From Mya arenaria (taxonomy: Eukaryota; Mollusca; Bivalvia; Myida; Myidae), in contig NC_069124.1 in the NCBI RefSeq assembly GCF_026914265.1, positions 16,079,088 through 16,143,087 on the forward strand: a stretch of 64,000 nt of DNA. The letters run 5' to 3'. Under the pieces are notes generated by a model, which saw only the letters and a program-made list of their open reading frames with translations, did no database searches and was not told where the DNA came from. Position numbers and translations under genes: made by a program. Below, piece by piece: positions 23,230-54,600 of this stretch (position 1 is the first letter of the stretch; every line of letters begins with the position of its first letter).

Positions 23230-26200
23230 GAGTAGTGGAATGCAATGGGACCCTTTAGACTTTGGATATATCACTTAAACACTCCTAAGCACAGGTTACA
23301 GAAGGGAGAAAATAAGATCTTTATATGCTTATTAAATATTGCTCTTCCTGAGCCAATTTCTGGCCATTGTGCGCAAGAGTGTAAACAAACTTTTCAATTG
23401 AAGTAAATTGACGAACATACATCGTGCTTTACAACGAGTTTCTCCTCTTTTTTTGTGCACATCTAATAGTACAAGATCAATGTTATTACAACCATGTGAA
23501 TGTCCGACCGCATAATGGATACAGATAAGCAGAACCTTTCTGTACCATATAGTATACAATATTCACACTGCTGACCACATATTTATATCGTTGCTAATTA
23601 ATGGCTCTTGTTATAGCCTTTACTTACATTTTCAGTGGTAATGGCAATATTGAGGTTTCCCTCTCATAAAAGCGTACGTTATGTCAACGGGCAAGTTCAT
23701 AATTGAGCCAGCGACCGTTTACAAGAATAACTGCTTAATTAATGTCGAGTACTTTCCGTTTGATGTGCAGGAATGCTTCTTCAAGTTCAGCTCATGGGCA
23801 TATGATGGCATTGAGGTATTATTGCTAGTGATGTTTGTTTGTAAAGTACGCTCAGGGAACACATCATATGTGCCACTGTTACTAACAAGCGCACATCAGG
23901 CATGAATAAGAAATATGTTGTCTTAGTTTCAGGCTATAGACTATGATAAGGTAACGACATTTATATGTTAAGAGTATTGTACCTACGACAAACGGTCTTA
24001 AACACCCTCTTAAAGACCCTCTTCCATGCTGCATTGATTAAGCACTTGCTCACCTTTCTGATTTCTCATTCCGGACCGAACATGCATGATAGATATGACT
24101 ATTCTGGAATTATTCGAAAGCACAGTTTCTCAGATTGTTTGAAACTTTTCGTTTACTGTAATGATCAGTACGACAATATCTTTGCTCAATAACAACTGGG
24201 TCCGGGGTAAAAAGGCACCCTCGACGAAAACGAAAAAAAAGTCAAAATTATAAAGGCGTCGACGGGCCACAAATAACCACTTAGGACCACAGTTATTTTT
24301 TCTATATGTTTCATTTAAAAACAGTCCAAATGGAAATATAAAAAGTAACTGCTGTTGAACAATCCAAGACGAAACAAATAATCACAAAAAAACATAAGGT
24401 TGACCTATGCAGTGTCTCACAAAATTGTGTAGAAAAACATGAACCTGAGGTAAGGACGAAATAAGGCTACAAACAACCAATTTACATAGTTTCACAGGCA
24501 ATGATTTATTTAATTTTTACACTAGAATCTTTTTTTTTGCAATACAGTGCCAAATTATGTTACGCTTTATGCAAATGGAGCATCCGTTTATTCTTTTTCA
24601 TTCAACTTTAATAAAATATTGATACTTGAACACAAGCACTCTTTTTTCTGTATTAACATCCGGATGAACGGGGAGGGGGCACATAACTGTCGTCTTGGGA
24701 ACGTAATATTTAGTCTTTTAATAATTAAAAAGCCTGTTAAAAGCATTTGCGACGTTTGTTATACGAGTCGTAGTGAAAGTTTTAATGTTAAAAAAAAATG
24801 AAATATAGAACTGTAGACAGCTTAAATCATAGAAATACCAAATTGAGTCAATAAGAATTGTAGTCACATTCGAATACATTTGCATAAGGCAAACTATTTC
24901 CGAAGATATGACGAGAACAATGATGTGTTAAAACACGCATGTAAATTTTATAAAAAGACAATTAGAAGATTCTAGAACACATTAAAGACATTGAAGTTTA
25001 CAAAACTCAAATTTCAAAACATTAAATCTAAGAAAATAAATTTACATGAAATACTTAATATTAAATCTAACATTATCAAATGCATTTCTGTGTTTATGTG
25101 ACAACCAATTGTCCAAGTATGAAAAGTTATGCTGTTTTGTAAAATATTTCTTATCTTAAATATATCTAACATGTTCGTGTTAGGTCTTGTTAAACAAATG
25201 GTTCTCCCGTAATATTTTGCTTTGTATATTTGTTTATTGCATATTCTTTTATCTAAATAGCCCTGGTCTTATTATTCATTTTTTCTCATGTAATCAATTT
25301 TTAATAAACTTATTATTTATAACCTTAACATTATTTTTTTAATTTGCATGGCCTCTCAAAACACAGATGCATACAATTACTTTTTAATGTGCATGACCTT
25401 ATTATTCAGGATAAAAGATCAGCCGGAAATCTGCAGGAAATCTCCAACATGTATGTGAAGAAGATAAACGGATCCGTGCGAACAACCACACTAGTATTCC
25501 CGTCGAGTTTGACCTGTTTGAATACAGTGAAAAAGTTGAGTGGGACATTATCAACATAACCGCTACAAGGAAGATGAAGTTTTGTTCCTGTTGCCATATC
25601 ATACCTTATCCTGACATCGCGTTTTGGATTCATATACATCGCAAAACGTTGTTCTACACTGCTAACCTGACAATGCATATCAACATTGACTGCTCTTGTG
25701 TTTTATTTACCGAGTGAATCTGGTGATGATAAAGCTGTGTCAATATCTATTCTCCTAGCACTTCTTGTTCGTCTTGCTGCTATCTGATATCAATCCTCTA
25801 ACGTCAATGGTGATACCACTGATCGGTAAATATTTGCTCTTCACCATTATATTCCTGACAGTGTACACACTGGGTGTTCATTTTCGCTCCCCTGCAACAC
25901 ATAAGATGACGCTATGGACGAGAAAACTCTTTATTGGAATACTGCCTAACATTTTGTACATAAAAAGACCAGATCAGGAAGATAAAAACAGTTGTGATAA
26001 ACAGATGACAGGGAATTGAAACAAGAAAACTATGGCGAGATTCTCGTATTGATTTGAATTTGAAAAGTTGTTTTTCTTGAGAAAACGACCCTTCTTCTTA
26101 TGATATTAGAACTCTTAATCGAGCACTACTATTAAAGACAACTAAAATGAAAGTTATAGTGATCATTGGTATTCTTTATGTTTAACTCCTATCCAGGAAA

Positions 26201-26336
26201 ACTTGGATTGGAACTATGTTGGCATGGTGATGGACCGCCTGTTTTCGCTCCTCTTTATTTCCGCTTGTTTAGAAGGGACGAAACATTCTTTCTGAGTGCA
26301 CCTTCTATAAATGACCTCCGGAAGCCACTTACATGA
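23230..26336 (+). pseudogene. decayed nAChR subunit (third tandem copy)
   Basis: Relic of a receptor subunit in the same orientation and exon order as subunits 1 and 2. About 23230-23320: weak exon 4 match around a QWDPLDFG stretch, interrupted by stops. 23636-23815: exon 5 with a stop and frameshift after about nine codons, then a frame matching the Cys-loop ([15 protein letters not shown]); the Trp of the usual IWEP motif is deleted. About 25410-26019: exon 6 in at least three frames, with loop C CSCCHIIPYPD, TM1 broken, part of TM2 missing and a deletion in TM3 ([18 protein letters not shown]), then a premature stop. 26197-26336: exon 7 (DWNYVGMVMDRLF) with a frameshift before SAPSIND. Exons 1-3 were not found. 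Several independent lesions exclude a functional subunit. Confidence 0.88.
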
Positions 26337-29300: not shown

Positions 29301-31412
29301 CATAAAATAATAAAGCATACACAAAATCATTACGTTATCACGAAGAGGATGTGTTTGTTTTATCAAACCATATGTCATCACAATTGTTTATTCCGGGTCA
29401 AGTTGTCTCTCGATCTACCATAAAGCTCTAGCAAACAATAATTGTAATAATAACTTTGAAGACATTTGTTAAAAAATCACAGACACCTTTAAGTAATAAG
29501 TGTACTAGCAGAAAAGATAAGAAGCACACTTCGACTGGATTAAAGACGTCTTATTAAATAAAATATTGCATTGATCGCATGACAGTTGAATTCATGTATA
29601 ATTGTTTCAATTATGAATAAGTTGGAGTGGTACAAGTGTTTGCCTTATTAAGTTTGGCCCACTGCGTGACGCTAAAACACGTCTGTTGCCTCTCATTGCG
29701 CACTCCAGTTTGAACACCGACGATTGACCAGATCTTGTTATTAGTTCTGTAATCGCTAACCACCGATCAAGGCACATTGCTTTTAACGAAATGAATTTCA
29801 ATATAAGTTCCAGATTTACAAATTTTGAAGCATGATCAAATGACATACTGTGTCCAGTATACATGAAGCATAGACATTTTATATATGCACACTACATAAA
29901 GGCTCTAAAATTTACATTACAATGACTAAGCATGTTGTTTTTTATTAAAAGCAATACTCTCTGCAAAGATAATCAATTTCCGCACCCACGAAATGTCTTT
30001 AAAGTATGCAAATTCCAAGCTTTGTCCTGATATTGCTTCACTCAAAGACAAAAGTCGTACAAATCATTGATGCACCTAATGCGATCATTTTTAAAGGTCT
30101 GTTCAAATCCGATATAAAACGAATCGCGCTTAAAACATTTTATGTCGCTATTCCTCGAAGCACAACCAGGCTTCATCTCCATGAAAGGTAATCTAGAAAG
30201 TGTTTTAGTGTCTCGCAGTGGTCTAAAAGCTGTACCAATTTACCTTTTTTGAAAATAATATTTAAGTTGATTTAACTGTCTGTTATTCATCCCGAATCAA
30301 TTTCGAGTTTAAGAAATTTGCTGATAAGATGATTCGATCAACTCGTATTAGTTTATATTTTTATCTGCCTATCTGTTCGTGCTAATGCGAAATTAATGTA
30401 TATAAAGCGTTAGTGCCAACTTGTATTTTATGTTTTAAATTACAACTACATGTAACTATTACTAGATATTAATGGGAGACTGAGTGACTCCAAGGCTCCT
30501 GATAAACATATACCAACAATTATCATGCCATATGGTTTGATAAAACATATGTTTCTTCTTCGCTGTTATCGTAATTGGAAAGACTGTTGTGCTCTATGCT
30601 CTATCATTTTATGTAACTGACAATTCTATTGTTTAGTGCAAGATGTCAGCCCGCCCGTAAAAATATACAAATCATCGTAGCATTGCCTTGATAAACTCCT
30701 CTGATAAGATTTGAAATAATTGGTAATTAATTGGTAGGTATGAGCGCAGGTAATTTAGCTCTCATCTAAATGAAGGTAGATTGGTTCGCAATATCCAAGG
30801 ACGGCGAAAATGGAAGAAAGCACTTTTCGCTGTGTATACATTGTCAATTCCTCGGTATTCATTATGTATAAATAATGAAACATTTGATTGATTATAGACA
30901 ACTTTGTTAAGTAAGGTACAAACGAAATATTGTACGCAAACAAACTAAATAAATATATAGTATTTCGTTTGATGGAATTAAGACATTGCAAGATATGTTT
31001 ATACAATCGATTGCGGGTCATGTTTTTTGCATACGGAAAAGAATGACAATGTTTAACAAGAACTATTCGAACTAAAACAAACACAGCGTATTTATATTTT
31101 TATCTAAGATTATACTAAAAGTTATGAAAAAATACGACAATTCTTAAAAATTAGTTCGAAAAGTATGATTCAGACGCATGTACAGTAATAATCTCCAAAA
31201 TAGAATTATCAAAGAAACATTTTTATTTAACAAATATCATTTAAAACAACATAAAATAGTATATTTAATGTGAAATGCTTTTCATAATAACCAATCGTTA
31301 ATATTTGTGTTTAAATTTGCATTATATTTACAAGGTACAAAGAACATACATTATCAATAATTTTGAAGTAAAATGTTTATGGCAGTGTTAATATTCATGA
31401 CGTGTGAATAGA
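26337..31412. other. convergent intergenic region
   Basis: About 5 kb between the plus-strand pseudogene and the 3' end of minus-strand module B. AT-rich, with a pyrimidine-rich C/T tract at about 28590-28760. I recognise no gene. The right edge (about 31220-31412) is the likely 3' UTR of module B. Confidence 0.55.
31222..31227 (-). promoter_or_regulatory. candidate polyadenylation signal of module B
   Basis: AATAAA on the minus strand about 185 bases past the module B stop codon. Confidence 0.4.
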
Positions 31413-32775
31413 TCAACAGTAGCCCCACTTGGCCGTTTCAGCCGTTAATGCAGATCGGTCGTCGTATATGGTCGGTGCCTGCAGAAGTATTCCAAATGTT
31501 CCAATGATAGACGCTGATGTAAAGACCCAAAAGAACACGCGGTCCAAAACCATAGCAACAAACTTCCAATCTTCAATAACCTGAAAAACGAAAAACAGTT
31601 GAAAATAACTCAGTGTTATCTTGTTAAAATATCAGTTGAATTATAATCAAATAACATGACTTTGTAACAAAACCTGCATAATAAAAGAAATTATTTTTGG
31701 GGTTGTAATATGCGGAATCGTTCATCAACATAAAGTAAGGCGTCTGAGGGAATAGATTTAGCATGCATGCAGTTATAGATTAGTTATTACCGATGAATAT
31801 TCATCCTCATCCTTAAGATGGTCGGAGATGAACTTTACATCGGTGAAAGCGACCTGGACGCGTCTATTAACCGTTGAATCATGTCGGCAATTGGGACAAT
31901 GGTTGTCTTCTTCCAAAAAATGCATCCCTTCATGCGGTTGAGATGTTACATGTCTCTCGTCACATCGTATGAAGCTGGGTTCTAGCCTGCGGTTCCTCTG
32001 TTTTACGCCATTGCACTTCATTAGCCTATATTTTCGCATGATGGGACGTTTCATGCATAACATTTTCGGTAGAACTCTGAGAAACACTGCCTGCGTCCAA
32101 TGAGACATTTTATGCGTAGCTGGTGATCGAAAATGAATTGTTAGGATACAGACGGTGACAATGATGGATAGGGTAACTAAAATCACAGTAAAGAGTAAAT
32201 ATTTTCCAATCAAGGGGATAACGACCGACGTAGGTGGAATCATTTCTGTGAGCAAAAGAAAGAACACAGTAAGGGAGAGAAGCACGGATATACACAATGT
32301 TATCTTCTCCTCACTGTCTGATGGTAGATAAAATACAAGAACAGTTAAAAATGATATAACAGCACATGGTAGAATAAGAGTAACAGTGTGGAATAAAGTC
32401 TTTCTCCGCATTGTTACATGGAAAGTCACGTCAATATACGGTTCAATACAGCAAATGTATATCTTAATATTCTTTTTAGCAGTTACTGAGATTACGTCCC
32501 ATTCGACGCTTTGGTAAAAGTCGCTGAGATCCATTCCATTGAAAATAACCTCTGTTGAATCAGAGTCACTTGCGCAAACATGAACTAAATCTATTTCGAA
32601 TCCATCGTAAGTCCAGGATCCAAATTTTAAGGAACAGTTTTGTACGTCAAAAGGGAAAAATTCGACATCCATGATACAAGCGCTTTTGTAAATAGCTGGT
32701 GGCTCCCAAATGATGAGGCCGGTATACATGATGGTCGCCTTTGTTAGAAGTTGGATTTCAAAATCTCCGTCGGCG
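31413..32775 (-). CDS. C-terminal module B (alpha-type): exons 5-6 and 7
   Basis: Exon 32775-31791 (985 bases) and exon 31580-31413 with TGA stop. It encodes ADGDFEI, Cys-loop [20 protein letters not shown], loop C with [10 protein letters not shown]1, TM2 ([20 protein letters not shown], Glu 20'), TM3, a cytoplasmic loop with a CPNC motif ([10 protein letters not shown]), then TM4 ([18 protein letters not shown]). A further cysteine occurs after loop B (LVHVCAS). There is no upstream exon set of its own within the window. Confidence 0.92.
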
Positions 32776-35700
32776 CTGCAACATATACAGGTATTTATAT
32801 TGCTTTGTATAGATAACAAAGTAAGATGCTGGTGATATTAATACCTGACACTTTTATAAGTATTTAATTCTTCATAGCGCTGTGCTGATTATAGGATTAC
32901 TTAAGTATATCTGTCATGTTATAAATCTAGATTTACTTTCATATTTGTAGGATTTATACCCTTGCACTTGCAGCACAATAAATGAATAACAATGTCAACA
33001 ATTCTTATGAAAGGGTAACAGCTTGACGAACAATATTGCTAATCATCATCGTAAGATTCATGCACAATGTTCTACTGTATGCGACTACTAATTTAGCACG
33101 GACCATGCAAACAGTATACTAAATTAACGGGCAGACGAATTGAAAGAAACCATAGATAGAACATAAATTTATATCCCACAAAGCGTATACTTAAAATATT
33201 TCACCACCTAAGCGTGTGCATCTTTCCTTTTAATGGTAATAATAAGTGACGTAACTCTACTAGCCATTTTACTACACAAGTTTCAAAACAATAGCGAATT
33301 CTTGTTTTCAATCGTTCGAATAGATCACCTTACCGATTAAAAAAACTACTAACCAGTTCACTTGTATATACAGATATTTTTCGCTTTTTCGAAGAAGAGT
33401 TATGCCACTTAAATCTTAATCTTAAAAGATTACAAACTATTTTTGCAAACCGTTATATATTGACTTTATTTCGCAAAAAATAAGTAGTGTTATTAAGCAT
33501 TAACAAAGCAATATTAACATTTAACATTAGTTTGCATCTACAACGAGTATTTGAAAAGCATTAGAAATTGCAAGGTTTTCTCGATCCATACCAATAACCT
33601 ACCCTTTACAGATTCCTTGACGAAAAGCAAAATGAGTTTTCGGACTTACTAGCCGAAAATAATCCTGAAAATAGTTTACACTTCGTTATTTGATGATTGA
33701 GTTTTTATTGTCTGTACATTTACATAAAAAAGATGTATATCCAGATCTAACGTGAAGAAAAATGATTGAAACAGACATTTATTTCCAAGTCTTACGTAAA
33801 GTTAAATTATGATATATAAATCAATGTCTAAATATACGAAAAAAACATACAACCTTGGTCATGTGGTGGTAGGCATTTGTAGGAGCTATCAACCGGGGTC
33901 ATACGTTGTCGGTTGTCATACAGCGTTGGTGCTTGAAAGATTATGCCAAACGTTCCCACTAAACAAGCCACTGTGAATATCCACAAGAATAACCTGTCCA
34001 AAACCATTGCAACATACTTCCAGTCTTCACGAATCTGAAATTATTGTAGTGGAGTGGTTCAACAAATTTTACCACGAAGATTATTCACAAAATTCAAACA
34101 ATTAAACTTGGTCGTGGGCTAGCGGCTCAATGGTGACAGTTTATGATAGCCTCTTATAATTGACAACAGTACTGGTATTTACTCATGATATGAAATGGAG
34201 CGTGATTGTATATGATATCAACTTACGTCACAAATAGACTAAAAGTAGAATGCTTGAAAACAAATAGTAAAACCAATACAAGTGCTTTTGTATGTTTTCT
34301 TTCATGTAGTAACACAACCCTCCTACATCCCTAATTACCGAAGCTGTATGGTCGCCCTTCTTGAGGTGTTCAGCAATGAACACAATGCTGTCAATTGCCT
34401 CCTGAACTTCCTCTGATAATACGCTGCTCTCTGAATCTAGATCCTCATGCGCCGTCAGACGTAACGTCTCGTAGTTGTCTAGATCATGCCTATTTAGGTA
34501 CTGATCTCGCATCTCCATTCCATTCCGAGTCCGCACTATGGTTCGGGCGACCTTTTCGAGCTCTAAGTTTGGACGTCGCATTAACAACATCTTTGGCAAA
34601 ATGTTTAGGAAGACGCGTCTCACCCAAGGTGCCATCGTGTGAGTAGAAGGCGACCGGAAGTGGACGTTCAGTGTTATGACAGTCACAATAATTGATAACG
34701 TGATTAAAATCATTGTAAACAGCAGGTACTTGCCGATCAGCGGAACGACAATTGACGTTGGAGGTATGATCTCTGCCAAAAGCAGGAAAAAGAAATTAAG
34801 TGAGAGCAAAATAGAGATGCACAAAGTAATCTTTTCGCAGCTGTCTGAGGGAAGGTAAAATACAAGAATGGTCAGGCAGGATATTGCAACAGAGGGGATG
34901 ATAAGATTAACGGTGTGAAACAAGGTTTTGCGCCTCATTGTCACATTGTATGTTATGTCTGGATATTCGGTGTTATTATTCACATTCTTTTCTGCAGTGA
35001 CCTCGAGAATGTCCCATTCACCGGATTCGTAAAAGTCACGGAGATCGATACCATTGAATATGACCTCTCTTGCTTTCGGGTTGGTAGAGCATTCGTGAAT
35101 GAGGTCCACTTGATTGCCATCATAAGTCCATGAGGCAAACCGCATGGAGCAAAGTTGAATGTCAAACGGGAAGAACTCGACCTCTATGGTACACGAGCTT
35201 TTGTAAATCGCCGGCGGCTCCCACACAACGCATCCTTGGTAATCGACAGTTGCTTTTGTCATGAGAGTAACTTCGTAATTTCCATCGGCACTGAAAAGTA
35301 AGTCTATTTAGACTACCAGACAAAACGAGAATTTCTTTTGTCTATGGTGATAAGGATTAACAAGCAGTGTTGAGGTAAATATAAGAAGGCAAGGCAGACA
35401 CATGTGGTTTCCCAAAGCCAAAAAAAAACATATAAGTACATCGGGAAATAAACGTTTTAGGATTGCTGTATTGGACTGCATTTGTACTCTCTATGTATGC
35501 TCTCACCCTATCCCAAGTTTCTTTGTATTCACAAAATAGGGCAATCTGCCCGGTAGGGATAGTTTGCACTCGGGGATACCGAGTGACCAGATGATTATTA
35601 AAATAAATAATTAAATTCAAAAAATATTTATAGTCTGTATTACAAAGTGTCGTCTTACCTGAAAATATAGAAAAGAATATAGGCAGAATATAGAACACAG

Positions 35701-38700
35701 TTTCGATATCTAGTAAAACATTGTCTACGATAATAATGTTTCGTTAATCATGCGGTTATAGATTCAATGCGACATGACTTTCTCAAGTATGTAATGTGCA
35801 ACAGTATTTCCTCATCAAGGTAAGTTCAGCAAACATAACTAGTTGTCCTTAAGCGAGCATTAGAATGTCACTTACTTGTTGAAGAGGACAATATCAGGCA
35901 GCCATATGTTTTTGGAAGGCAGCTCGAGTTGTTTGATTGTTCCATATTCCTCCGGATCCCACTGCAGACTGATATCTCTCCACTCCTGGTGAGAAAACAT
36001 AAACTGGTCGTAGAAGAAATCGTGCAAATCTAACTTAAGTAATATAAACTACCATAACCACCACAGCACTTGTTTGACATTCTATAAAAGCACATATACA
36101 ACTATTGAGCAGATTGTTCAGAGCTGCTATAATCTTAACACAACTGTTAAATTCATCGTTGTAAACTTAAAATTGTGAAATAAGTTTTTGATGGGTTTAT
36201 ATATTTACTTCATACAGATACAGCTGAAACAGTTGTCTTTAATCATATTTAAATTTATACGTATCGCAAGTGTGTTTTAAACAATTTAGAGAGGTAAAGA
36301 TTTGAAATTTAACAGCGATGGGTTGTTAACCTGAACAATCGTCGCATTACAAACATTAAACATAACTGCCATGCAAAAATAAACAAGAGGTATTAACAGT
36401 GGACAAAAGGTATTCAGAAAGCAGGGTCTCACAGACATACAACACGATTCTAAATATCAACATCCCATTAAGTCAAAACCGAGTTTGCTTTAAGACGAAA
36501 ACAATAAACTTATACCACTTGGTTCTTCCAAAAAAATTTTTTTATTTTTTTTTTGAAAATTAGGATATTGATACAGAAAAGGCAAACTCTAACTTTATTG
36601 CAATGACCTACTTATTATAAAGGACAATATCGGGGAGCCATATAAGCTCAGATGGTACATAGAGACGATCGACACCCCCGTACTCGGCTGGGTGCCACGT
36701 CAGCTTGAAATCATACCACTCCTGACAAGCCGCAGATAATAGAACAACATATACATATGTGAGTACGTGGAACGATAACTTTGAAATAGTCGAACAGTCA
36801 GACATTATACATATAATGCATATAGTCATACGTAAATAGATCTAAATGATAAAAGTGTGTAACATGGCCAAGGTTTGTGGCAAATAAAATAAATCCTCAA
36901 GCTGTTTTACAACGTTTTTCATACAAATAATTATCCATCGATTTGGGATTTGGTCATTTATGGAGTAATCGACAAATGCGCTTTTATGGGTTAGTGCAAT
37001 GTTCTTCATAAAGTATTTAATTTGGTTAAATTTTAAATTTTGTTTGATATAGGAAGTATTGTTGTCGTTTTCTGAAATAGACTGATATTATATTTCAAAT
37101 AAATTAAATTTGATAGCGTTGCACAAAATCGTTTGTTAAGCAAGACGAGGAATCCTGATTTTCAATTTGGCTGACAGCTTTCTATACATTGATTTTTGCT
37201 GACGTTAATTTTACTCAAGCAAAATATCACTAAGAGCGTTAAGTTCCTGATGAATTATTTTGAGAAACGTTTCGTCGATTCAATGTTTCAATAAATGCGA
37301 AAGCACGAACGATTTCCCTCTTCTCAAATAATACGTCTGTTTCTTTAAAATATTACTGCAGAATAGGAATCGAGCAATATCATTTCCTCATCAATTCGAT
37401 TCGGCAGTTTGACCTGCGGCATCACGCGTGCAAATACAAAAGCGTTAACGTCTGACATTTCATACGATTTCTTACTAGGCTCTTATTGATATTTCGCGTG
37501 GCTGTGCTAATCACGGCGCCTCGTTTGTCTTGGTTAAACAAAGTATCAATCAAAAACCACACGTAACAAAACTGAGACCCTTTCAAGACAAACCTTACTG
37601 ACATCGTTTTTCATAAGGAATATTTTGCGCAAGAAAAAGCTTCGATACGCTTCTACATCATTATCAAGAGTACACATACCTATTTTGGTTAGCCTTTTTA
37701 CTAGTTTTGAAATATCTAATTTTTAATGATCGTGAAGTTGGCAGACTGGCAGCCTGGCAGCCTTCTTACTCCTGTATTTACAATTTGAACATGTAATTCA
37801 ATTGGACGTTTTATCGTTATATCGCAAAAAAATCTCGACCGCTTTTTTATTGCATCTGTCTATTAATCTGAGATTTTTTTCAAATAGTAAAATAGCATGC
37901 ATCACTGATTACGACAAAACGGAATAGACAGTTTTCAAAGAAAATGGTTCGCCTCAAGAGAACGCTGAATTCCGAATTCAAAGGTTTGACCCAGTATGCA
38001 ATCTAGCCAATATATCAAAGTACAATATACGTTTGATACAATTTCAATAAAGACATCATATTCAAATAAAGTTTTGTTGATTTTGTCTGAAGAGAATTGG
38101 TCGACCATAAAAGCTGCACTCTCACAAATTGAACGTTTCGACAACTTTTTTTTTAATTTTTTGTCTCTGATCGAGCCAATTTATTCGAAAATGCATGGAA
38201 ACCAGTCATATAAGACTGCTTACAAAAAATTGATCGCAGATTTTGATTTTTAAGTTCATAAATATACATTATATGCATTTTTTTTAAACCGTTAGTAACG
38301 CTTTTAGCCATAAAACATAAATTTTTGAAGGGAAATATGAAAATCTGCGATGTGTTCTTTGTCAGCAGTCTCTTATAACTGGTTTGCAAATATTAACGGA
38401 AATATTTGCTCATTCCAAGACAAAAAATATAAAAAGTAGTTACAAGGGTAAATCTGTGAGAGTGCAGCTTTAATACAAATATCGTCAATAAATAGTTTGC
38501 CAACTTGGTCCATATTCACTAACGTCTGTTTGTTACTCAGACTTAGCAATGCAATTTCGTAAATTTATCAAAGATCACTTTATATAATTATGTTGAAGTA
38601 AGGCTGAGTAAATAAAGATAAACCAGCCGTGTGTTATGTACACCGCGGTTTTCACCGTTACTGCTTCCGAGGCAGCACGTATTCTACGATGGAATCAAAT

Positions 38701-41700
38701 CTTGCACTTCTGAAACTCAGACTTAAGAATTAAGTGCTTATTGGCCCTTTTTGAACTGTCATTATTCGCTGTCATATGTCTGGCGTCACCACTTACCAAC
38801 AGAGAATAACGTACGTTGTATGCTTTGTATCTTGGTCTTTCATTGTCAGACATGCTTTCTATGTATCCATTAAAGTGCATCTCTTCTGTTATCTTTAGAG
38901 TATTTATTTCAAACTTGGGCTGTGAGTACAAATGTAATTAAGCAAATCTTCAACAAATGCAACGCGTACCTTCACTGTTTTATTCCACAAGTTAAAAGTG
39001 TATTATTAAATGATAAAACAAATACAGATTTGTATCAACGAGCGATAGACAGTGTATGGTTAGATCAAAACAAACACTGATTAAAGATTGCGTTTATGTC
39101 ACAACTTAAATTAAAAATTGGACAATTTAAACTAGATGTGTCTATCATCCAAATCCAAACAACTCAATTCCAAATTAACGATATTACTTTTCCAAATTAA
39201 CGATATTACTTCTTGAGATTTCCAATTCAAAAAAGGTATCACAGTGTCTCCATTATGAACGATTAAATGGAGGGCGTGGGCACCGTATGTATAGCAGCTT
39301 AATTTCAAAGAAAACGTTTGTTAAAGAAAGCATTTCAAATTGTATTCTTCTGCTCAGTCGATATCAAAAACGTTCTTATTAAAAAGCAGCTGCAAATTTA
39401 TTGAGAGTTTATGTAAACTTTAATATATATATATAATTGTGTATGTATTCAAATTATATGTCAGGTTTAGTATTTATGCAACTGTTATGTACGATTTAGT
39501 ATTCAATAAACTTCATAAGTGTTTGGTATTTATACATGTCTCATGTAAAAAAAATAGTATGTATACAACATTATGTAAAATTGTAGCATTTATACAATTT
39601 CATAAATAAATAAAAACTATTATGTGAAACATTGTACTATACAACTTTTACATAAACTTTAGTATGAACAGAAGTGCCATTGTGTCACTTGGTAGTAAAT
39701 GTAAACCCTACATACCTGTCTCAGCCACACATTGGTCGTCATCACCTGGTTCAACTCATCCTGGAATAAAAAAAGATAATCATATAAGTTAGGAATAGCA
39801 AAATTTAAACAGTATTTCGTATCAGCATAAATATCAAGCATTGTATTACGACATTAGCTAAATAACAAACATATGATTGTTACATGGGAACGGATTAAAA
39901 GGAAAGCATGTTTCTCTGCTACGTACTATAATGAAAGAAAGGCAAAGTTTATCCAATAAATGTTCGTTTGATAAAATCTAATATATCAGTATAAAAAGCA
40001 AACGATAAATGTACAGTTAAAACATAATTCGCCTTAAGATTATAATTGGATTTTTAATTAATAGCCACGTGGCCACAAAATCTCTAGTTCAAAAAGTGTC
40101 AAAATATCGCTAATGTTTTTTAAACTGTACACAAATCATACGCTTTTTTGTGTTTATCATTTAAGTCAAACGATGAATTAACATTTAGAAAACAAGAGAA
40201 GAATACATCTTAAGTACATTTTACTGCTGAAATAGATTTAATACTATTAACATTTATTCTACCGATGTATGTATTACCATGTACATATTGAGTGTGTCTA
40301 ACTCGAATTGCACCAAAGATCACCTGCAAACCAATCAATCATTCCAATTATGTTATGGTGTTATAAAATACGATATCTGATATTTTAAGACATCAATAGC
40401 AATGCGTTGTACTTCTCTAAGTCCATAGTATGAAATTAATGTTAAAACACGAATGTTTCATATGGCATGGTTTGATATTGTTATTCTGGTCCTTAGTTTG
40501 TACAGAACTGTATTTGTTACAGAATACGATACTTTTAAATCTTGATAATTAAATCATATATTCATGAGTGAAAGTTGCAAATCTGCAAAAATCTTTCGCA
40601 CCAGCTGTGACACAAAGTCAAATCTGTTATTTGTTGTTGTTTAATTTTATTTTGAAAAAGTCACATGTACATTTTATTGTAGTTATATATTTTTCGTTGA
40701 GAAAAAGACGCACCGATTTTGAATTTGCGAAACTAGGGCCTTGGAACTTAATAATATTAAAAGTAAAACGTACAGACATTAAAACAATAAGATTTATGGT
40801 GTTGGTGATCTGTTATCGACGGTTTCCGAAAACGTGTTCCGTTTGTTTAAATCTTTCACAACAGCTTTTTCTTCTGCGACACTAGACACTGTTATTGGTC
40901 CAGTTGAATAATTAATTGAATTCAACAGTTTTTCTTTGGCAAGGCTGTGTTCTTTTGTAGCAAAAATGACAATCAGCCTATAGAGAAAGTGGTTGCAATA
41001 TATTTCGCTTGATAAAGTAATACATTCTTTTATGAGCAATCAATGAGTGTCTGGACGTATAATTTTGCCGAAAATATGAAGATCTATTTAATGCTTTGAC
41101 GACCAGCATGTCTGCTTATAGGCAGATTTTATTTTTTTCTGTTATATCAGCTACGCAGAGTAAAATTACTTGATGATGTGGACTAGTATTCAAAAACGGT
41201 CAAAATATATTGCTGCAAGTATATCACATACAACATTATTTAAGGAATCGCCCTTTGAACGTTTGATTTCAAGGCAGAACTTACTGTTTTAAAGTCAAGT
41301 CTTTATAAGGTTCAATATTTAGCATGCATGATACTTATGTCCTTTTACATGTGTATTGGTGGTTTTAGAGCGAAACAAACTTTACAAAAGAATATTTTAG
41401 CATAATCTAGTTCAAAAAGCATTTGCATTCAAATGAAAGTGCCATTATAGTAGGAATAGTTTCATTTGCACTCTCCAATCAATACTTTTCCCGGCCTTGA
41501 CGTATATTACATCTAGACTTGGGTAGATTGAGTCAGAATTGTGTTATTTTGAAAGGTTTGGTTTGTGTTCACCAAGCCGGACAAATGGAAACCTTCTGTG
41601 TACTCCTGTTTCCCCCACAACACAAGATCAGATTCGCGTGCATTTCGCGTGCCAACAAATGGAACTTAGCATACTAACTTAATTCACAATCGCTGTAAGA

Positions 41701-42561
41701 AATATCAAGCATAGCCTAATTGTGTCATTTTATAATGTGCAGGGCGAAGAGAAACTTTTCAATATGTATACCAGTACTATATAATGACCGTGTACAGATA
41801 ATTCACTGGTGCCACACACATAATATGTGTATGTATTATACGGAGAGTTCCTACTTGGCAGCTCTTCTTAAATCTACGCAAGTATTGAAGGTAATTTACT
41901 ATAATAACAGCGCAACATGTGTTCCAATAATTTACTCCGGCACTCATGGGGAGAAAATATTCACAGTATTATGTTAAATAATAGAAAATATGTCCCTACC
42001 AATTATTTTATGAATATAATACTCGAACATAACGTACGTTATAACATGGACATCTATGGTTTCGTCTCCTTCATCTCTGGTATTAAACAGATCATTATTT
42101 AGAATAGCTAAAATTTGCTGAACTTCAGCACCAACATCTTTTTCATCATGCAATTGCCGCTTTCGAAAAGAAGAAAAACTACACTAATGGTTGAAATATC
42201 ACCTGCTGTTACACGGTATCGACTGTTTCAATCAAGTATACATATCATACAAGTAAAATTGCGAAACATGTTGTTAATCAAAATAAAAAAAATACTGAAA
42301 TATACTTAGTTATATTGTTGATTTAAGATTACTTACGACGTCGATGATTTGTGACAGCCGAATTCCCATCTTCACCGTGAGCGGTTTGTTTGTGTTGTTT
42401 CCGATGGGACGAATCAGTTTATTGTACTTGTTCTGAATCAGTAGATCGTGATACAAGCGTTTTGCGTCGTCGTTGCTGTCGGCATACCCCAAAAGTTCGC
42501 AAATGATAAGCGCCACAAGACATCCCGTAAAACAAAATTTTAGTTTTCGCACGGCCGCCAT
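31413..42561 (-). CDS. compound nAChR locus, alpha-type form (exons 1, 3, 4a, module B)
   Basis: Predicted alpha-type acetylcholine receptor subunit of 510 residues from exons 42561-42337, 39760-39716, 36721-36612, 32775-31791 and 31580-31413. Every junction is GT/AG and in frame. The start is the ATG at 42561 (AAAATGG context) opening a signal peptide. Module B supplies the Cys-loop, loop B WTYDG, loop [11 protein letters not shown] with the Cys pair, TM1-TM4 and the stop. Exon 4a supplies the loop A Tyr (IVLYN). I pair 4a with module B because both carry alpha-type ligand-site residues; this pairing is inference. The 3.8-kb intron between 4a and module B contains exon 4b and all of module A. 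No separate exons 1-4 for module B were found between 32776 and 33827. Compared with subunits 1 and 2, the introns between exons 1/2 and 5/6 are absent. Confidence 0.75.
33778..33783 (-). promoter_or_regulatory. candidate polyadenylation signal of module A
   Basis: AATAAA on the minus strand, 45 bases past the module A stop codon and about 1 kb before module B. If used, it would end the non-alpha transcript before module B. Confidence 0.45.
33828..35290 (-). CDS. C-terminal module A (non-alpha): exons 5-6 and 7
   Basis: Exon 35290-34339 (952 bases; exons 5 and 6 of the plus-strand genes fused) and exon 34034-33828 with TAG stop. It encodes ADGNYEV, Cys-loop, loop B, a shortened loop C without the Cys pair, TM1-TM3, a cytoplasmic loop ending [12 protein letters not shown], then TM4 ([18 protein letters not shown]). 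The tail beyond TM4, about 28 residues, is longer than in module B. A further cysteine lies after loop B (LIHECS). An AATAAA lies 45 bases beyond the stop. Confidence 0.9.
33828..42561 (-). CDS. compound nAChR locus, non-alpha form (exons 1, 3, 4b, module A)
   Basis: Predicted non-alpha receptor subunit of 512 residues from exons 42561-42337, 39760-39716, 35985-35876, 35290-34339 and 34034-33828. Junctions are GT/AG and in frame. Module A has a normal Cys-loop ([15 protein letters not shown]), loop B WTYDG and four membrane segments, but loop C reads [13 protein letters not shown] with no vicinal cysteines, so it should not form the principal face of an acetylcholine site. TM2 keeps Glu at -1' and 20' but has Asn 12' and Phe 13' in place of the usual Thr-Val. 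Exon 4b has Phe at the loop A tyrosine position (IVLFN), which fits a non-alpha role. No private exons 1-3 were found for this form, so it appears to depend on the shared 5' exons. That sharing is inference from gene structure. Confidence 0.75.
35876..35985 (-). CDS. exon 4b (proximal alternative exon 4)
   Basis: 110 bases from acceptor ...ctcaccag to donor gtaagt, same phases as exon 4a. Reads [16 protein letters not shown] then [10 protein letters not shown], with Phe in place of the loop A Tyr. Splicing 4a directly to 4b would add 110 bases and shift the frame, so productive transcripts must choose one. Confidence 0.88.
36612..36721 (-). CDS. exon 4a (distal alternative exon 4)
   Basis: 110 bases from acceptor ...cttgtcag to donor gtaggt, with phase 0 entry and phase 2 exit as in the other exon 4 copies. 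Reads [16 protein letters not shown] then [10 protein letters not shown], with Tyr at the loop A ligand position. Open and undamaged, with normal splice sites, so it is not an obvious relic. Confidence 0.88.
36722..39715 (-). other. intron between exon 3 and exon 4a of the compound locus
   Basis: About 3 kb. It holds the foldback element at 38109-38473 (listed separately). I found no second copy of exon 3. Confidence 0.6.
38109..38473. mobile_element. foldback (MITE-like) element, copy 1
   Basis: Ends are inverted copies: AAAGCTGCACTCTCACA at the left and TGTGAGAGTGCAGCTTT at the right. Internal segments also pair: ACCAGTCATATAAGACTGC near 38202 with a complementary stretch near 38370. No coding capacity. 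A second copy lies at 48347-48637. The structure fits a non-autonomous DNA transposon with long inverted repeats; the superfamily is not assigned. Confidence 0.75.
39716..39760 (-). CDS. shared exon 3 (loop D region)
   Basis: 45 bases, 15 residues, [15 protein letters not shown], flanked by a pyrimidine-rich acceptor (ttccag) and a gtatg donor. Same length and phase as exon 3 of subunits 1, 2 and 6. It contains the Trp of the complementary-face loop D. It is the only copy seen between 36722 and 42336. Confidence 0.92.
39761..42336 (-). other. intron 1 of the compound locus
   Basis: About 2.6 kb of AT-rich intron between the shared exon 1 and exon 3. I see no receptor exon and no clear repeat. 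Confidence 0.5.
42337..42561 (-). CDS. shared exon 1: signal peptide and N-terminal strand
   Basis: 225 bases, 75 residues, in phase 0 at its end (GACGTC then gtaagt). It starts at the ATG in an AAAATGG context. Hydrophobic signal core [18 protein letters not shown], then an alpha-helical start, the family motif [13 protein letters not shown] with an NNT glycosylation site, [15 protein letters not shown]. In subunit 2 the same stretch is split by an intron after the signal region. This is the only such exon seen for the locus. Confidence 0.92.
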
Positions 42562-44265
42562 TTTGGAATTTCTTTTTAACACTGAAAAATGTTAGTTATT
42601 ATAGTCCAAGCATTACTTTTTATCTATCTACTGGCACGTTTAACTAGCCGATAAACTCGTTTTAAAGCTATGTCATATATTTAGTGTACAAACATGAATA
42701 AGTAAGTATTCGATTAACGGGAAGAAAACGCGTATCAGAGCGTCTAGCGAGATGTTTGATATTGTATTTAGCTACACTATCCCTATACCTCCTTGCCATC
42801 TATCGTATTGGAGAATTCTCTATATTCCGTATGCTATGGCAGGACTGGGTAGCAATCATGAGCGTTACAACACGTTATTTGTTGAGCTTACCTTTGTTAA
42901 TTGCTTTCACATACTCTGTCGGCAATGTTTCGCTGTAAATATTGTTCTGGAAACATACAGTTTCGGAGGTTCATTGTAAAACAGCTGTCTATCATCCGTA
43001 AGAAATTCTGTATTGATAAAACCATGAATCAGTGTGCACAGATGTTGCCATATCGTTTGTATTCAAAGTAGTTCAAGGAATTAAATGTTCGACTTGTGAT
43101 GGTGATTCTATTCTTTCCTTTAAATCAAGAGCTTTTTGAACATGATTAAATGTTAAAACTTTTGTAAACTGTTTTAAATAGATTCGTGTAGGATATTCTG
43201 ATATTACAGTTGTAGTTTTAGCTATTTCGATCGAAGTACAAGTCAATTGAATCACGTTTTACCAAATTTATTAGGGTGCTTTCATTTTATTACTGATTGA
43301 ATTTAAAGATGCTATAAAGATTTTGAAAAGATGTGTACTGAGATGCGAACCTATCTAATTGGCAATGCATTTGGGTGTTCAGTCTGTTTGATTTATTCAC
43401 GAACTAATTTCTACTATCTCTGCTTTGAATAATCTAATGTACAATTTTAAGAAGCTTGCATTTACTTTATGTGGTAAATACCATTCAAACATCATGAAAT
43501 ACATCTCAATGGCTAAACACAAGATGATTGTAACTCCGTATAAGTAAAGAAGAAGTTACTGCCGTATTGCACCGAGCCTACATTATGTTTCTGTATATGG
43601 TTCTGTATCTGTTTATGTCCTCATTGTGTGTATTTTCCTATAAATTAAACAATTTGATATTCAAATGATCATTGCCTTAGTTATAAATTCAAGTTTACGT
43701 CGGTCTGCTGTGCTTTTTCCGGAGACTGACTTTAAATCGAAACATCTATTTGCAAGTTTGTCTCTGTAGTTTTTCAGTTTTTGCATTTTCGAAAGAGATC
43801 AATCACAATTGATTGAAATTTTCCAAGCAAGAATCGAAAAAAATGTAAAAATGTTTCGTTATTAAATTTCATTTCAAGTTCAATGTATTTAGTTCTCTAA
43901 TAATTCTAAAATCTCGTTGCACAGTTCAGTGTAATAAACTGAATATAAAATAGTTACTATAGATATATGTTTTAAATGCAACACAAACCGTATGGAAAAA
44001 TACGAATTTAATATCATCAATAACAGGCAAAACGATTCATCAATCTGTATTTTTTTAACTAATATGCGCGATATTTCAAGCTGTATGGAGCAATTCAATC
44101 CACTTAGGATCTAAAAGCATGATTGCATAAAATATTAGGAGCTTCATTTGAAATTAATTACGCCGGTTGATTCTATAACTTGATTTCATCTCATTATGAT
44201 ATTCGATACTTTCCTATCGGGAAATAAAAGTTGTATTTCAATCAATGAAGAATTTTAACTGCCAC
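42562..44265. other. upstream region of the compound locus
   Basis: AT-rich DNA directly upstream of the shared exon 1, so it probably contains the single promoter of the compound locus. I could not identify a convincing core promoter motif or another gene. Confidence 0.4.
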
Positions 44266-45070
44266 TATTAAAATCTGATCTGCGTTTTCTTGAAATGGTG
44301 GGGATTGTTTTTCCTCCTATAAGAACATAAGAACTGGCAAGAATATATGAACTGGCAAGAACATAAGAACTGGCAAGAACATATGAACTAGCAAGACATA
44401 AGAACTGGCAAAACATAAGAACTGGCAAGAACATGAACTGGCAAGAACATACGAACTGGTAAGAACAAAAAAAACTGGCAAGAACATAGGAACTTGCAAG
44501 AAAATAAAAACTCGCAAAAACATATGAACAGCAAGAACATAAGAACTGGCAAGAACATACAAACTGGCGAGAACATACAAACTGGCAAGAACATAAGAAC
44601 TGGCGAGAACATTCAAACTGGAGAGAACATACAAACTGGCGAGAACATACAAACTGGCAAGAACATAAGAACTGGCAAGAACATACAAACTGGCGAGAAC
44701 ATACAATCTGGCAAGAACATACAAGCTGGCGAGAACATACAAACTGGCAAGAACATACAAGCTGGCGAGAACATACAAACTGGCAAGAACATAAGAACTG
44801 GTAAGAACAAAAAAACTGGCAAGAACATAGTAACTTGCAAGAACATAATAACTCGCAAGAACATACAAACTGGCGAGAACATACAAACAAGCAAGAACAT
44901 ACGAACTGGCAAGAACATATGAACTGGCAAAAACATAACAAATGGCAAGAACATAAGAACCGTCAATAACATAAGAACAAGCAACGTTACGTACCCTGAA
45001 AACCACAGTCATTGTCAGTTGTCACTCATATCGCGTCTGAGGCTCGATCTACCAGAGAAGCGCAATTTGA
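44266..45070. repeat. duplicated segment, copy 1, carrying the minisatellite
   Basis: Its left edge (AAATCTGATCTGCGTTTTCT) and right edge (CGATCTACCAGAGAAGCGCA) match the edges of a second segment at 45162-45548. The middle is filled by the 18-bp minisatellite. The second copy carries only about one matching unit. Confidence 0.65.
44320..44982. repeat. 18-bp minisatellite
   Basis: About 36 copies of a unit like AAGAACATACAAACTGGC with variants (ATAAG/ATACA, GGCA/GGCG). Because the unit is a multiple of three, several frames stay open on both strands and give Cys-rich or Asn/Thr/Gly-rich pseudo-proteins. There are no splice sites, start context or homology to support coding. Confidence 0.93.
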
Positions 45071-50416: not shown

Positions 50417-51012
50417 TCAAGTAGGCGGTTGTTTAGCCCTGTCCCAGTTTGCATTATATCTAGCGAGAATTTCATCCTGGTTGATCTTCTCGAAGATGTG
50501 AGGAGCCTTGAAGAAGATGCCCAGAGTCCCAGTAAAAGTGACAATGAAGAAAATTGTGAGCAGCAATCTGTCAACCACTCGGGCAATATATCGCCAGTCA
50601 TCTATCACCTGCAATGGCAGTGAGGAATAAAGTCATTATCGTCAAAAAAACGCAACAAAGATAGACATATCTAACGTCTGAATATAATAAGTAATATGCC
50701 TCAGTAATAATTGTTATACAGTGGAAACTCACTAAACCGGATCTCCACAAAACCGGAATCCTCGGGATTCCGGACTTTTTTCAGAGCCCCGGTTTTCCCC
50801 TTCTGTTTTCAATGTAAAATAATCCTTACAAAACCGGAATCTCGGAATTCCGGATGTAGTTGTTGTGAAGCTGAATTAGTAACAACAGTAACAATGTGTT
50901 TCTTTGGTGGTGGTGGTGGTGGTGGTGGTGGTGGCGGTAGTTGAGGAGGAGGAGGAGTAAGGGTAGGAGTAGTAGTAGTAGTAGTAGTAGTAGTAGCAGT
51001 AGCAGTAGCAGC

Positions 51013-51080
<68 letters not shown>

Positions 51081-51130
51081 CAGTAGCAGTAGCAGCAGCA
51101 GAAGCACTAGTTGTAGTAGTAGTAGTAGTA

Positions 51131-51176
<46 letters not shown>

Positions 51177-51185
51177 CAGTAGTAA

Positions 51186-51275
<90 letters not shown>

Positions 51276-51345
51276 CAGTAGCAGCAGCAGCAGCAGTAGT
51301 GCGCTAGTAGTAGTAGTAGTAGTAGTTGTAGTAGTAGTAGTAGAG

Positions 51346-51388
<43 letters not shown>

Positions 51389-51404
51389 CAGTAGCAGTAG
51401 CAGT

Positions 51405-51460
<56 letters not shown>

Positions 51461-51578
51461 CAGTAGCAGCAGCAGCAGCACTAGTAGTAGTAGAAGTTGT
51501 AGTAGTAGCAGCAGCAGTAGTATCAATAGTAGTAGTAGTAGTTGTAGTAGTAGTAGTAGTAGTAGTAGTCGTAGTCGT

Positions 51579-51610
<32 letters not shown>

Positions 51611-54600
51611 CAATAGTAGTAGTAGTAGTAGTAGTAGTAGCAGTAGCAGTAGCAGCAGCAGCAGTAGCAGTAGTCGTGGTAGTGATAGTAGAAGTAGTAA
51701 TTGTGGTAGAAGTTGTAGCAGTGGTTGTAGTAATAGTCGAAGTACATATAATTCTTACTGTAGTTATAATAAGAGAAGAGGACGGAGTAGTACTAACTGT
51801 AAAAAAAAAGTGTGAGAAATTTGTTTTCTTTACTTACAGTGTGATATTCGTCATCTTTCTTTTGATGTTTCTGTATAAATGATATGGATTCAGCAGCCTT
51901 GAATATCTCCGGTGAGAACTGAATGTTAGGTGCATCCACTGGGACATTTTCTGTGAAACTCGTCTCCGCTGTGTCGGGAACACGTCGGTCTGTCAGCCTA
52001 CAGTTCGGGTGGTGCGTCTCTATCATACTTTCAAGACGAGACCCACCGATAGATTGAGCAATACCACTGATTTGTGTATTAGGCACCGAGTGTATCGTTG
52101 TACTATGAGTCAAATCTGGATGACCTTTTGGGTCCTTCTTATTATCTTTTTTGCCCCGCCAACGTTTATCATGATCGGGGCGTTTCATGAATAACAGTCT
52201 TGGAAGCCAATTAAGAAGAAACACTCGCATCCATCGAGGCATCTGATGCGTTCTTGGGGTCCTGTAGTTGCGATTTATAACGATCACGGTGCTAATAATA
52301 GCGAGTATGTTCATTATAAATGTAAATAACAGAAACTGCGATATGAGTGGAATTGTCAGAGATGGTGGAAGAATTTTTGATATCAGCAAAAGAAACACAA
52401 CCAAAGCAAGCAAAATGGAAATACACAGAGTTATCTTTTCGCCAGCGTCGGCCGGCAGTATAAACACTGATACAGTCACAAAAGAAATTAGAACGCATGG
52501 AATTATTAGGTTCACTGTGTAGAAGAGAGTTTTCCTTCTCAGTTTGAGTTGAAATGTGACCATGGGTTTATATTTGTTGCCCACGGGTACGCGGACGATA
52601 TCTGCCTCCCCGCTGACAATGTCCCAAGCCCCGTTCTCTAAGTAGTCGCTTACATCAAAGTGAGTCACATCCAGGAAAAAGGCAAATTGTAATTGTTCTT
52701 CCTGTAAGAAAATCAAATATTTACATGATGTTGAATCCAGCCAATAAGTAAGTTAGTTTTCCAACACAAGTAATAGCTTCATTAACAATAATGTAAAATG
52801 GTGATGCTTGTTGACGGCAATGATTTTGTTATCATTGGAAATGCATTTGCTTGAATAGTATAAATATCTTAAATAAATTACCGAAAGTACATACAAGATA
52901 CAAGATACAAGAATCTTTATTTAAAGTCGGGTATGTGTTAACAAGAAACATTAGCTCAATAAGCTTCTTTCCGACATGAATAACAGACATACATAAAATG
53001 TCTAAATAATTATAAAAAAAATGAGCTTGTGACCTGGAAATAAAAGCATATAGGTTAAAATGAACAAAAAATGGAACAAGTATTTATAGAAGCCGTTCGT
53101 TATCATATGCATGCATACAGTTACAAATAGTAAATTGGATTAGAGTATTAAAATCATTGATAACATCAACAAGTTTTCCCGGCTGTACGGGGAATCCACA
53201 CGCACGGGTCCGTTGACATAACACTGTATAATGGTTAGATATTTCAAGAGTATAACTGAAAGGATAATTGTGTACATAAAATTAGCAAAATGACATTGTA
53301 CATTTGGACACCAAAGTGTTTATATTTGCTCTTTATTTCAACTCAATTCAAGCGCATAAAAAGACCAATTTTGAAATATTTGAGGGCCTAAAACTTTTTT
53401 TGGTTATATACATTTTGGTAAATAATGAACATTTCATTTTTGTTCACACAAACCTCTTAGAAATTATGTAGAAATATTAATGGGTCACCAGGCAAACAAA
53501 AATTCTCTCATAACTAGGCAATTCTTAAATAGGATACTTTATCATTAAGAATGTCAACTTTTGCGGGTGTTTAAAGGTCTGCCTACTACCAGTCATCCGA
53601 TACACACTCCCTGCGTCAGATTTTGCGTTGACAATGAATCAGCCAATGAAGTTGTATTCTCAGTCAGTTACATGAAATGAAGTAAAACCTTAATGATTAA
53701 GGAGGGCTCATTCGCTACACTCATTCCGCCAATTCTTAATCATTAAGAATGTACTTCATGTCATATAACTAATACAATTATCACGCGAAACAACAATTAT
53801 TATAGATTAACGGGCTCGCTTTCTAGTAACGCCACAAGATATGTCGCATGTACACAGAAGCTTTATGTACATTTAAACACGGTTTATCTGAACACCGTTT
53901 ATCCGAAATTTTTGCTATTTCGGACTTATTTTTCGGTTGCGATTTTTTTTCTTCTTTGTAAACTCAAATTTTCATCAATAATCCGAAATTGTTTTTTCAA
54001 AATATCGCTACCATAGTTCCATTATTTCTACGAGTTGTTTATGTTTTATAGACAAAAAACTTGCAAACATGTTTAAAGAGTGATTTTGAGTAAAATGGCG
54101 AAGCCAAACATGTTTTATTATTAAACTTATATAGCTGAGCTGTTTGAAGCATAGATAGAAAAAAATATCTACTGAAACTAATATGAAGAATAAGATGTTT
54201 GACCTTGGGGATGCGTCATTTATGTCCGATTTTAGTTGAAATGAAGAACAAATAAACAAACCGTAATACCTTTATTTACATATTTGAAATCAGTCAACAA
54301 ATACTTAAACTGAATGACGAGCACGTTCCGCAAATTATATTTGCAAGCAGTCGTAAGTTCGTAAACAAGTATTTACCGTAAACGTCCAGGAGCCAAATTT
54401 GAGATCACAGACTTGCTCATCAAAGGGGAAGTACTCTACGTCGATGAGACAGGAGCTTTTGTAGATGGCAGGCGGGATCCAGTTGACGTAGCCACTCTTG
54501 TAAATAACCACGTTGGACATGAACGACACCTCGTAGTTGCCATCAGCACTGTTTGTAAAGTAAAACAATATTAAAATATAATTAAAACTATAGGCCTACA

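Follow-up and report, generated by a model that had tools for sequence, protein, structure and literature searches.

On the minus strand of the 64,000-nucleotide stretch of Mya arenaria DNA analysed here (the window; C3:16079088-16143087, C3 being contig NC_069124.1) lies a receptor locus, designated W, whose relatives were sought across a genome of 1.216 Gb in 18 contigs. The parts of W are listed in Table 1. As the initial annotation had it, exons 1 and 3 are single, exon 4 (4a and 4b) and the C-terminal module (A and B) are doubled, and all of them share one orientation and are open; the order of the parts is 4a, 4b, A, B and thus exon 4b and the whole of module A sit within the would-be intron between 4a and B, which bears out the nesting that was also described there. 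Exon 1 contains the equivalent of exon 2 of the vertebrate genes, so that nothing is missing between exons '1' and '3'. The introns are bounded by GT-AG with matching phases, and no U12-type sites were seen by eye among the donors (GTAAGT, GTATGT, GTAGGT, GTAAGT, GTAATT and GTAATA).

Table 1. Parts of locus W (window positions) and its sister copies (C3 coordinates)
Feature	Position	Strand	Description
Exon 1, coding part	42561-42337	-	Putative signal peptide and mature N-terminus to ...IIDV; donor GTAAGT; common to both arms
Exon 3, 45 nt	39760-39716	-	Common to both arms; same protein in W, U, P and Q
Exon 4a, 110 nt	36721-36612	-	C-terminal end DIVLYN, alpha type; alive in W and U
Exon 4b, 110 nt	35985-35876	-	C-terminal end DIVLFN, non-alpha type; alive in W and P
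Module A, main exon	35290-34339	-	Remaining ligand-binding domain, transmembrane segments (TM) 1-3, cytoplasmic loop; without vicinal cysteines
Module A, last exon	34034-33828	-	TM4, C-terminus, stop
Candidate early poly(A) signal, AATAAA	33783-33778	-	44 nt past module A stop; motif match only
Module B, main exon	32775-31791	-	Remaining ligand-binding domain with YICC loop C, TM1-3, cytoplasmic loop
Module B, last exon	31580-31413	-	TM4, C-terminus, stop
Candidate distal poly(A) signal, AATAAA	31227-31222	-	185 nt past module B stop; motif match only
Copy U	C3:16045970-16057063	-	Part order as W
Copy P	within C3:15815001-15831000	+	Part order as W
Copy Q	from C3:15946501	+	About 96% like P; part order as W
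Copy R	C3:15979510-15981769	+	Decayed A and B only
Twin of R	C3:15848513-15850390		Known solely from match rows of the genome search

Modules A and B encode nicotinic acetylcholine receptor (nAChR) subunits, members of the Cys-loop ligand-gated ion channels, as is evident both from Pfam and from the closest solved chains. Against the transmembrane domain PF02932 the two modules score 185.1 bits (A) and 185.6 bits (B), and against the ligand-binding domain PF02931 112.4 bits (A, profile positions 93-216) and 116.2 bits (B, 94-216); exon 1 aligns with positions 2-40 of the latter profile at 25.2 bits, slightly below the 26-bit cut-off. The solved chains nearest to module A are those of alpha-4 (290.1 bits) and beta-2 (284.8 bits), and those nearest to module B are neuronal alpha-6 (289.9 bits), alpha-4 (284.2 bits) and beta-2 (265.8 bits). 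These scores, with the selection measurements given below, put both modules far beyond chance.

Vicinal cysteines in loop C (YxCC) are the mark of nAChR alpha subunits. Module B has YICC at this position in both W and the sister copy U, making 4a-B an alpha arm, whilst vicinal cysteines are absent from module A and 4b-A is hence a non-alpha arm. Further clues come from the end of exon 4, where the Tyr of the Tyr-Asn ending is part of loop A. Among ordinary genes hand-picked from 15.96-16.22 Mb, with decayed genes excluded, a Tyr-Asn ending is paired with YxCC in all four alpha genes and a Phe-Asn ending with its absence in both of the other non-alpha genes. Exon 4a is therefore suited to module B and exon 4b to module A.

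The phase is 0 at the end of exon 3 and 2 at the start of both modules, and either exon 4 contributes 110 nt. Joined by script, 1-3-4a-B gives a protein of 510 amino acids and 1-3-4b-A one of 512, and all four combinations that contain a single exon 4 are open throughout, with the stop at codon 511 (B) or 513 (A). Joint inclusion of 4a and 4b leads to a stop at codon 174, and omission of exon 4 altogether to one at codon 133 (A) or 96 (B). Since two or zero copies of exon 4 break the frame, the choice of arm is exclusive in effect; 4a and 4b, which share 58% amino acid identity, length and phase, have in this the properties expected of mutually exclusive exons.

Sister copies of W are found along the same chromosome (Table 1), and all six parts can be traced in U and P, living or as remnants, in the order seen in W. 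In W itself every part is alive. U retains an open frame of 511 amino acids through exons 1, 3 and 4a and module B, but its exon 4b is dead, the acceptor AG and 7 nt being gone, and so is its module A, in which 869 aligned sites show four stops and 13 indels, of which 11 break the frame. Copy P is the reverse: exons 1, 3 and 4b and module A are open, the stop in the last exon lying 12 residues beyond that of W, whereas exon 4a is reduced to its acceptor region and some 25 nt of exon sequence, with a stop as second codon, and module B carries five stops and two frame-breaking indels in its surviving part, no relative of its first ~199 residues having been found in P. Copy Q resembles P but its exon 4b has a nonsense codon (stop at codon 102). 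In R both modules are decayed and no relative of exons 1, 3 or 4 stands out there.

Genome-wide, exon 1 has ten matches, four of them at 83% identity or more (W, U, P and Q) and the other six at 63% or less. Exon 4a is present at 97% identity or more in at least two places (W and U; 150 of 198 candidates scored) and exon 4b at 89% or more in at least three (W, P and Q, that of Q with its nonsense codon; 150 of 187 scored). Intact module A occurs at 96% identity or more in at least three places (W, P and Q; 125 of 577 candidates scored) and intact module B at 91% or more in at least two (W and U; 122 of 1156 scored). These counts agree with reciprocal loss among the copies.

The pattern of loss also bears on whether any exon 4 might be spliced to either module, giving up to four subunits. 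Such free combination would be allowed by the frame, which all four combinations keep at full length, and in the passages on Tribolium alpha6 all six alternate-exon combinations are reported as detected (PMC2064938). Against this, in both half-lost copies the partners have gone together, 4b with A in U and 4a with B in P, and the signatures of exon 4 and loop C agree within arms only. We think free combinatorial splicing unlikely.

P and Q are not equally alike throughout. Over 2.5 kb (C3:15822501-15825000) spanning the 4b donor, module A and the last exon they differ by zero substitutions and three gap columns, and elsewhere by about 0.4-8% per 500-bp window, the nonsense codon in exon 4b of Q lying just upstream of the substitution-free stretch. 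Either gene conversion in the recent past or an effect of haplotypes could be the cause.

Selection on the arms was analysed using the ratio of nonsynonymous to synonymous substitution rates (dN/dS; Nei-Gojobori, with bootstrap) and three-way comparisons in which changes unique to one copy were counted by codon positions 1/2/3. The alpha arm gives a W-U dN/dS of 0.117 (bootstrap 0.075-0.165; 419 codons; dS 0.38) and the non-alpha arm a W-P dN/dS of 0.068 (0.039-0.106; 421 codons; dS 0.34). Pairs of a living and a dead module give 0.40-0.62, which fits the expectation that one side alone drifts. In module A, unique changes number 4/4/25 in W, 4/3/24 in P and 61/53/54 in U; in module B, over residues 200-328, they number 2/2/14 in W, 4/4/12 in U and 31/22/25 in P. 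With R as third row, the counts for module B are 9/5/25 in W, 4/3/30 in U (p 6.5e-9 for U) and a near-flat 43/43/44 in R, and those for residues 158-317 of module A are 3/3/18 in W, 5/3/8 in P and a near-flat 38/24/38 in R. Both arms of W are under purifying selection, and the dead arms drift.

These measurements leave very little room for the idea that W is itself in mid-decay, one arm being a pseudogene that has so far escaped visible damage. The death of arms does occur in this family, as U, P and R attest. However, third positions take 76% (A) and 78% (B, residues 200-328) of the changes unique to W, where the share for the dead modules of U and P is 32%, and the low dN/dS values of 0.068 and 0.117 are seen at a dS of 0.34-0.38; as a candidate decaying copy, module A is ruled out by its codon-position pattern. 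That W might be an assembly artefact, in which an alpha gene and a non-alpha gene were joined into a chimera, is scarcely credible: the neighbourhood is rich in near repeats, and P and Q, about 96% alike, may be haplotypes, but W has diverged from both U and P (arm dS 0.38 and 0.34) and so was not assembled from them, and the remnants in U and P keep the same part order.

Constraint is also apparent in the shared exons. In the mature part of exon 1 plus exon 3, changes unique to P at positions 1 and 2 amount to 1/118, compared with 53/253 in P's dead module B (Fisher p 6.4e-9), and those unique to U to 2/118, compared with 114/581 in U's dead module A (p 4.2e-8). For the mature part of exon 1, dN is 0.020 (W-U) and 0.010 (W-P) and dS 0.28 in both comparisons. 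Exons 1 and 3 of P are thus constrained though its alpha arm is dead, and the shared exons are therefore not for the alpha arm alone; as they are constrained next to either living arm, they are common to both.

Private 5' exons for arm A were sought in W, P and U with tblastn, with blastn using 7-letter words and with a scan for AG-45nt-GT, and none was found. The scan returned 16 (W), 11 (P) and 15 (U) stop-free frames, the best of which, exon 3 apart, match 2, 4 and 3 of the 15 residues, respectively; there is hence no second candidate for exon 3 in these three copies, to which the exon 3 search was limited, no genome-wide search for exon 3 having been made. The sole strong W-P block between exon 3 and exon 4b is the remnant of the 4a acceptor (87 bp, E 1e-18). 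These results bear on the proposal that the arms of W are separate genes and that one of them, with 4b plus A the likeliest candidate, has its own promoter and short unrecognised 5' exons before 4b. Small divergent first exons may evade such a search, the gap between exon 3 and 4b in W is 3.7 kb, and a few short, weak W-P similarities fall within it. On the other hand, in P the 4a remnant lies just 203 bp from 4b and exon 3 1.9 kb from it, the one strong block is accounted for by that remnant, the best AG-45nt-GT frame other than exon 3 reaches 4 of its 15 residues, and exons 1 and 3 of P would on this proposal be useless, yet they are constrained. We therefore consider two separate genes quite improbable.

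Taken together, these results point to W as a single transcription unit that yields an alpha and a non-alpha nAChR subunit by exclusive choice of arm, and whose duplicates have been split by complementary loss, a reading to which we give a probability of roughly 85%. The initial annotation had proposed that the two modules are alternative 3' ends of one transcription unit and that one 5' end serves both, and had seen no recognisable private N-terminus for either in the window. The reciprocal losses in the sister copies argue for the first of these; exons 1 and 3 stand intact and constrained beside either surviving arm (P and U), as the second predicts, and the third agrees with the finding of no second exon 1 or exon 3 in the stretches of W, P and U that were read.

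In the mechanism we propose, exons 1 and 3 would supply an identical first 90 residues, putative signal peptide included, to both proteins. The non-alpha subunit would be made by splicing exon 3 to 4b and thence to module A, with early polyadenylation near 33778, and the alpha subunit by splicing exon 3 to 4a and thence to module B, 4b and the whole of module A being skipped and polyadenylation taking place near 31222. Both poly(A) signals are candidates by match to AATAAA, scored without a chance control, a motif that is common in AT-rich DNA and has other AATAAA/ATTAAA matches nearby. The splicing itself, a strict pairing of 4a with B and of 4b with A in the mRNA, its coupling to the choice of poly(A) site and the meeting of the two subunits in one receptor are what we infer from this arrangement. 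The locus has been duplicated along the chromosome, after which U lost the non-alpha arm, P the alpha arm and R both, W alone keeping the two. Each duplicate lacks a different product and the shared parts are kept in both, as is expected of complementary loss (duplication-degeneration-complementation, DDC).

Several points weigh against this reading. The case is built from genomic sequence, and both arms are alive only in W, so that the dual state is that of a single locus in a single genome. The pairing within arms rests on two half-lost copies (U and P) plus the residue signatures, and the frame does not force it, the cross pairs 4a-A and 4b-B being in frame too. Short W-P similarities are seen between exon 3 and exon 4b, one of 39 bp at E 1e-4 and another of 47 bp at E 0.002. 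When R is the third row, the P-unique changes over residues 158-317 of module A show no significant unevenness (p 0.32), although those over the whole module with U as third row do, and the U-unique changes over residues 200-328 of module B are weakly uneven (p 0.042). Measured over all of exon 1, the dN/dS values for W, U, P and Q lie at 0.27-0.60 and have broad intervals; the part coding for the signal peptide is free to vary, and in this comparison exon 1 of U was read one codon late, which misaligns the signal peptide and inflates U's dN. Finally, tests by codon position that take in just the shared exons do not reach significance (p 0.07-0.25), because very few changes have happened there.

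Receptor subunits of opposite class are normally encoded by separate genes. If one promoter makes both, the supply of the two would be tied together, and a possible route to new heteromeric receptors would be opened. In a more far-reaching version, which we put forward tentatively and hold to be somewhat doubtful, a single receptor would draw both its ligand-binding subunit, the alpha, and its structural one, the non-alpha, from this gene, a coupled choice at the RNA level (4a with B or 4b with A, tied to early or late polyadenylation) would set subunit supply, and the duplicates would have 'divorced' into single-subunit genes. With W keeping both arms, U just the alpha arm, P just the non-alpha arm and R none, all in one genome, the cluster amounts to a natural experiment on the splitting of an alternatively spliced gene into two.

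Common 5' exons with alternative 3' modules are known from Drosophila lola and mod(mdg4), and VAChT is nested in an intron of ChAT with a 5' exon in common. W resembles the former in its common 5' exons and alternative 3' modules and the latter in its nesting within an intron with a shared 5' exon; all of them belong to other protein families, and we know of none that gives two ligand-gated channel subunits. Closer in kind are the insect nAChR genes alpha4 (exon 4/4') and alpha6 (exons 3a/b and 8a-c), where the sections on these exons describe tandem duplicated alternatives, largely mutually exclusive in alpha6 (PMC1919356, PMC2064938). As in W, duplicated nAChR exons there serve as alternatives behind one 5' end. 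As far as those sections go, however, the insect cases are single-exon swaps within one subunit, whereas in W everything past residue 90 would be replaced, alpha giving way to non-alpha, and each arm has its own transmembrane region and 3' end.

The splitting of alternative products after duplication also has precedents. The products of mitf in fish are said to have been divided between duplicates. In fungi, the duplicates of an alternatively spliced gene have each lost a different product in the cases of SKI7/HBS1 and PTC7, according to the relevant parts of the account (PMC3597508), and the W family shares with these the reciprocal loss of alternative products. Compared with what is described of SKI7/HBS1, PTC7 and mitf, the W family differs in that the undivided copy, both half-copies and a dead copy are found on one chromosome of one genome, and in that the products are two classes of receptor subunit. 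The set of fates in one genome is unusually complete. Tandem nAChR arrays in bivalves are already known, with ordinary and intron-poor genes treated (Jiao et al. 2019); unlike W, no shared 5' end is described in that paper's passages on the arrays, 'alternative' occurring 0 times in its text and 'splic' once. Among the titles and the openings of abstracts listed, most subscription journals lying outside the search, we found no account of an nAChR gene in which a single 5' end carries two subunit modules.

An origin of the two modules by duplication within the locus was also considered. Neither A nor B has the intron by which the ordinary alpha module is divided after ..TYDGHE/Q. In a tree with outgroups B joins the ordinary alphas with support of 87/87; a single clade of A and B is not rejected by the approximately unbiased test (p 0.178 with outgroups, 0.241 without), and the fork is open in the tree without outgroups. 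On exons 1 and 3 together, dS is 0.31-0.33 for all three pairs of W, U and P and does not put their duplications in order, exon 1 of U being offset by one codon in this comparison.

Within intron 1 of W, a 98-bp block at 41865-41961 is 85% alike between W and P, compared with 72% for the other long block (162 bp); the 98-bp block may be a regulatory element. W lies in a cluster where nAChR genes and the wrecks of such genes occupy both strands, and C3:15.69-16.16 Mb apparently consists of repeated blocks in which a dual unit goes with plus-strand alpha genes, the match coordinates suggesting periods of about 65 and 131 kb. In the window, a decayed alpha-type nAChR gene with stops (23240-26280, plus strand) lies between a plus-strand alpha gene (12.6-20.1 kb) and W. 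Long open frames in several frames at 44255-45021 resemble a short tandem repeat (SYVLASLYVLA...) and, judged from those frames, are probably a minisatellite, and a large trinucleotide-rich repeat at 50809-51883 falls mostly in the last intron of a minus-strand non-alpha gene (about 50.5-58.0 kb).

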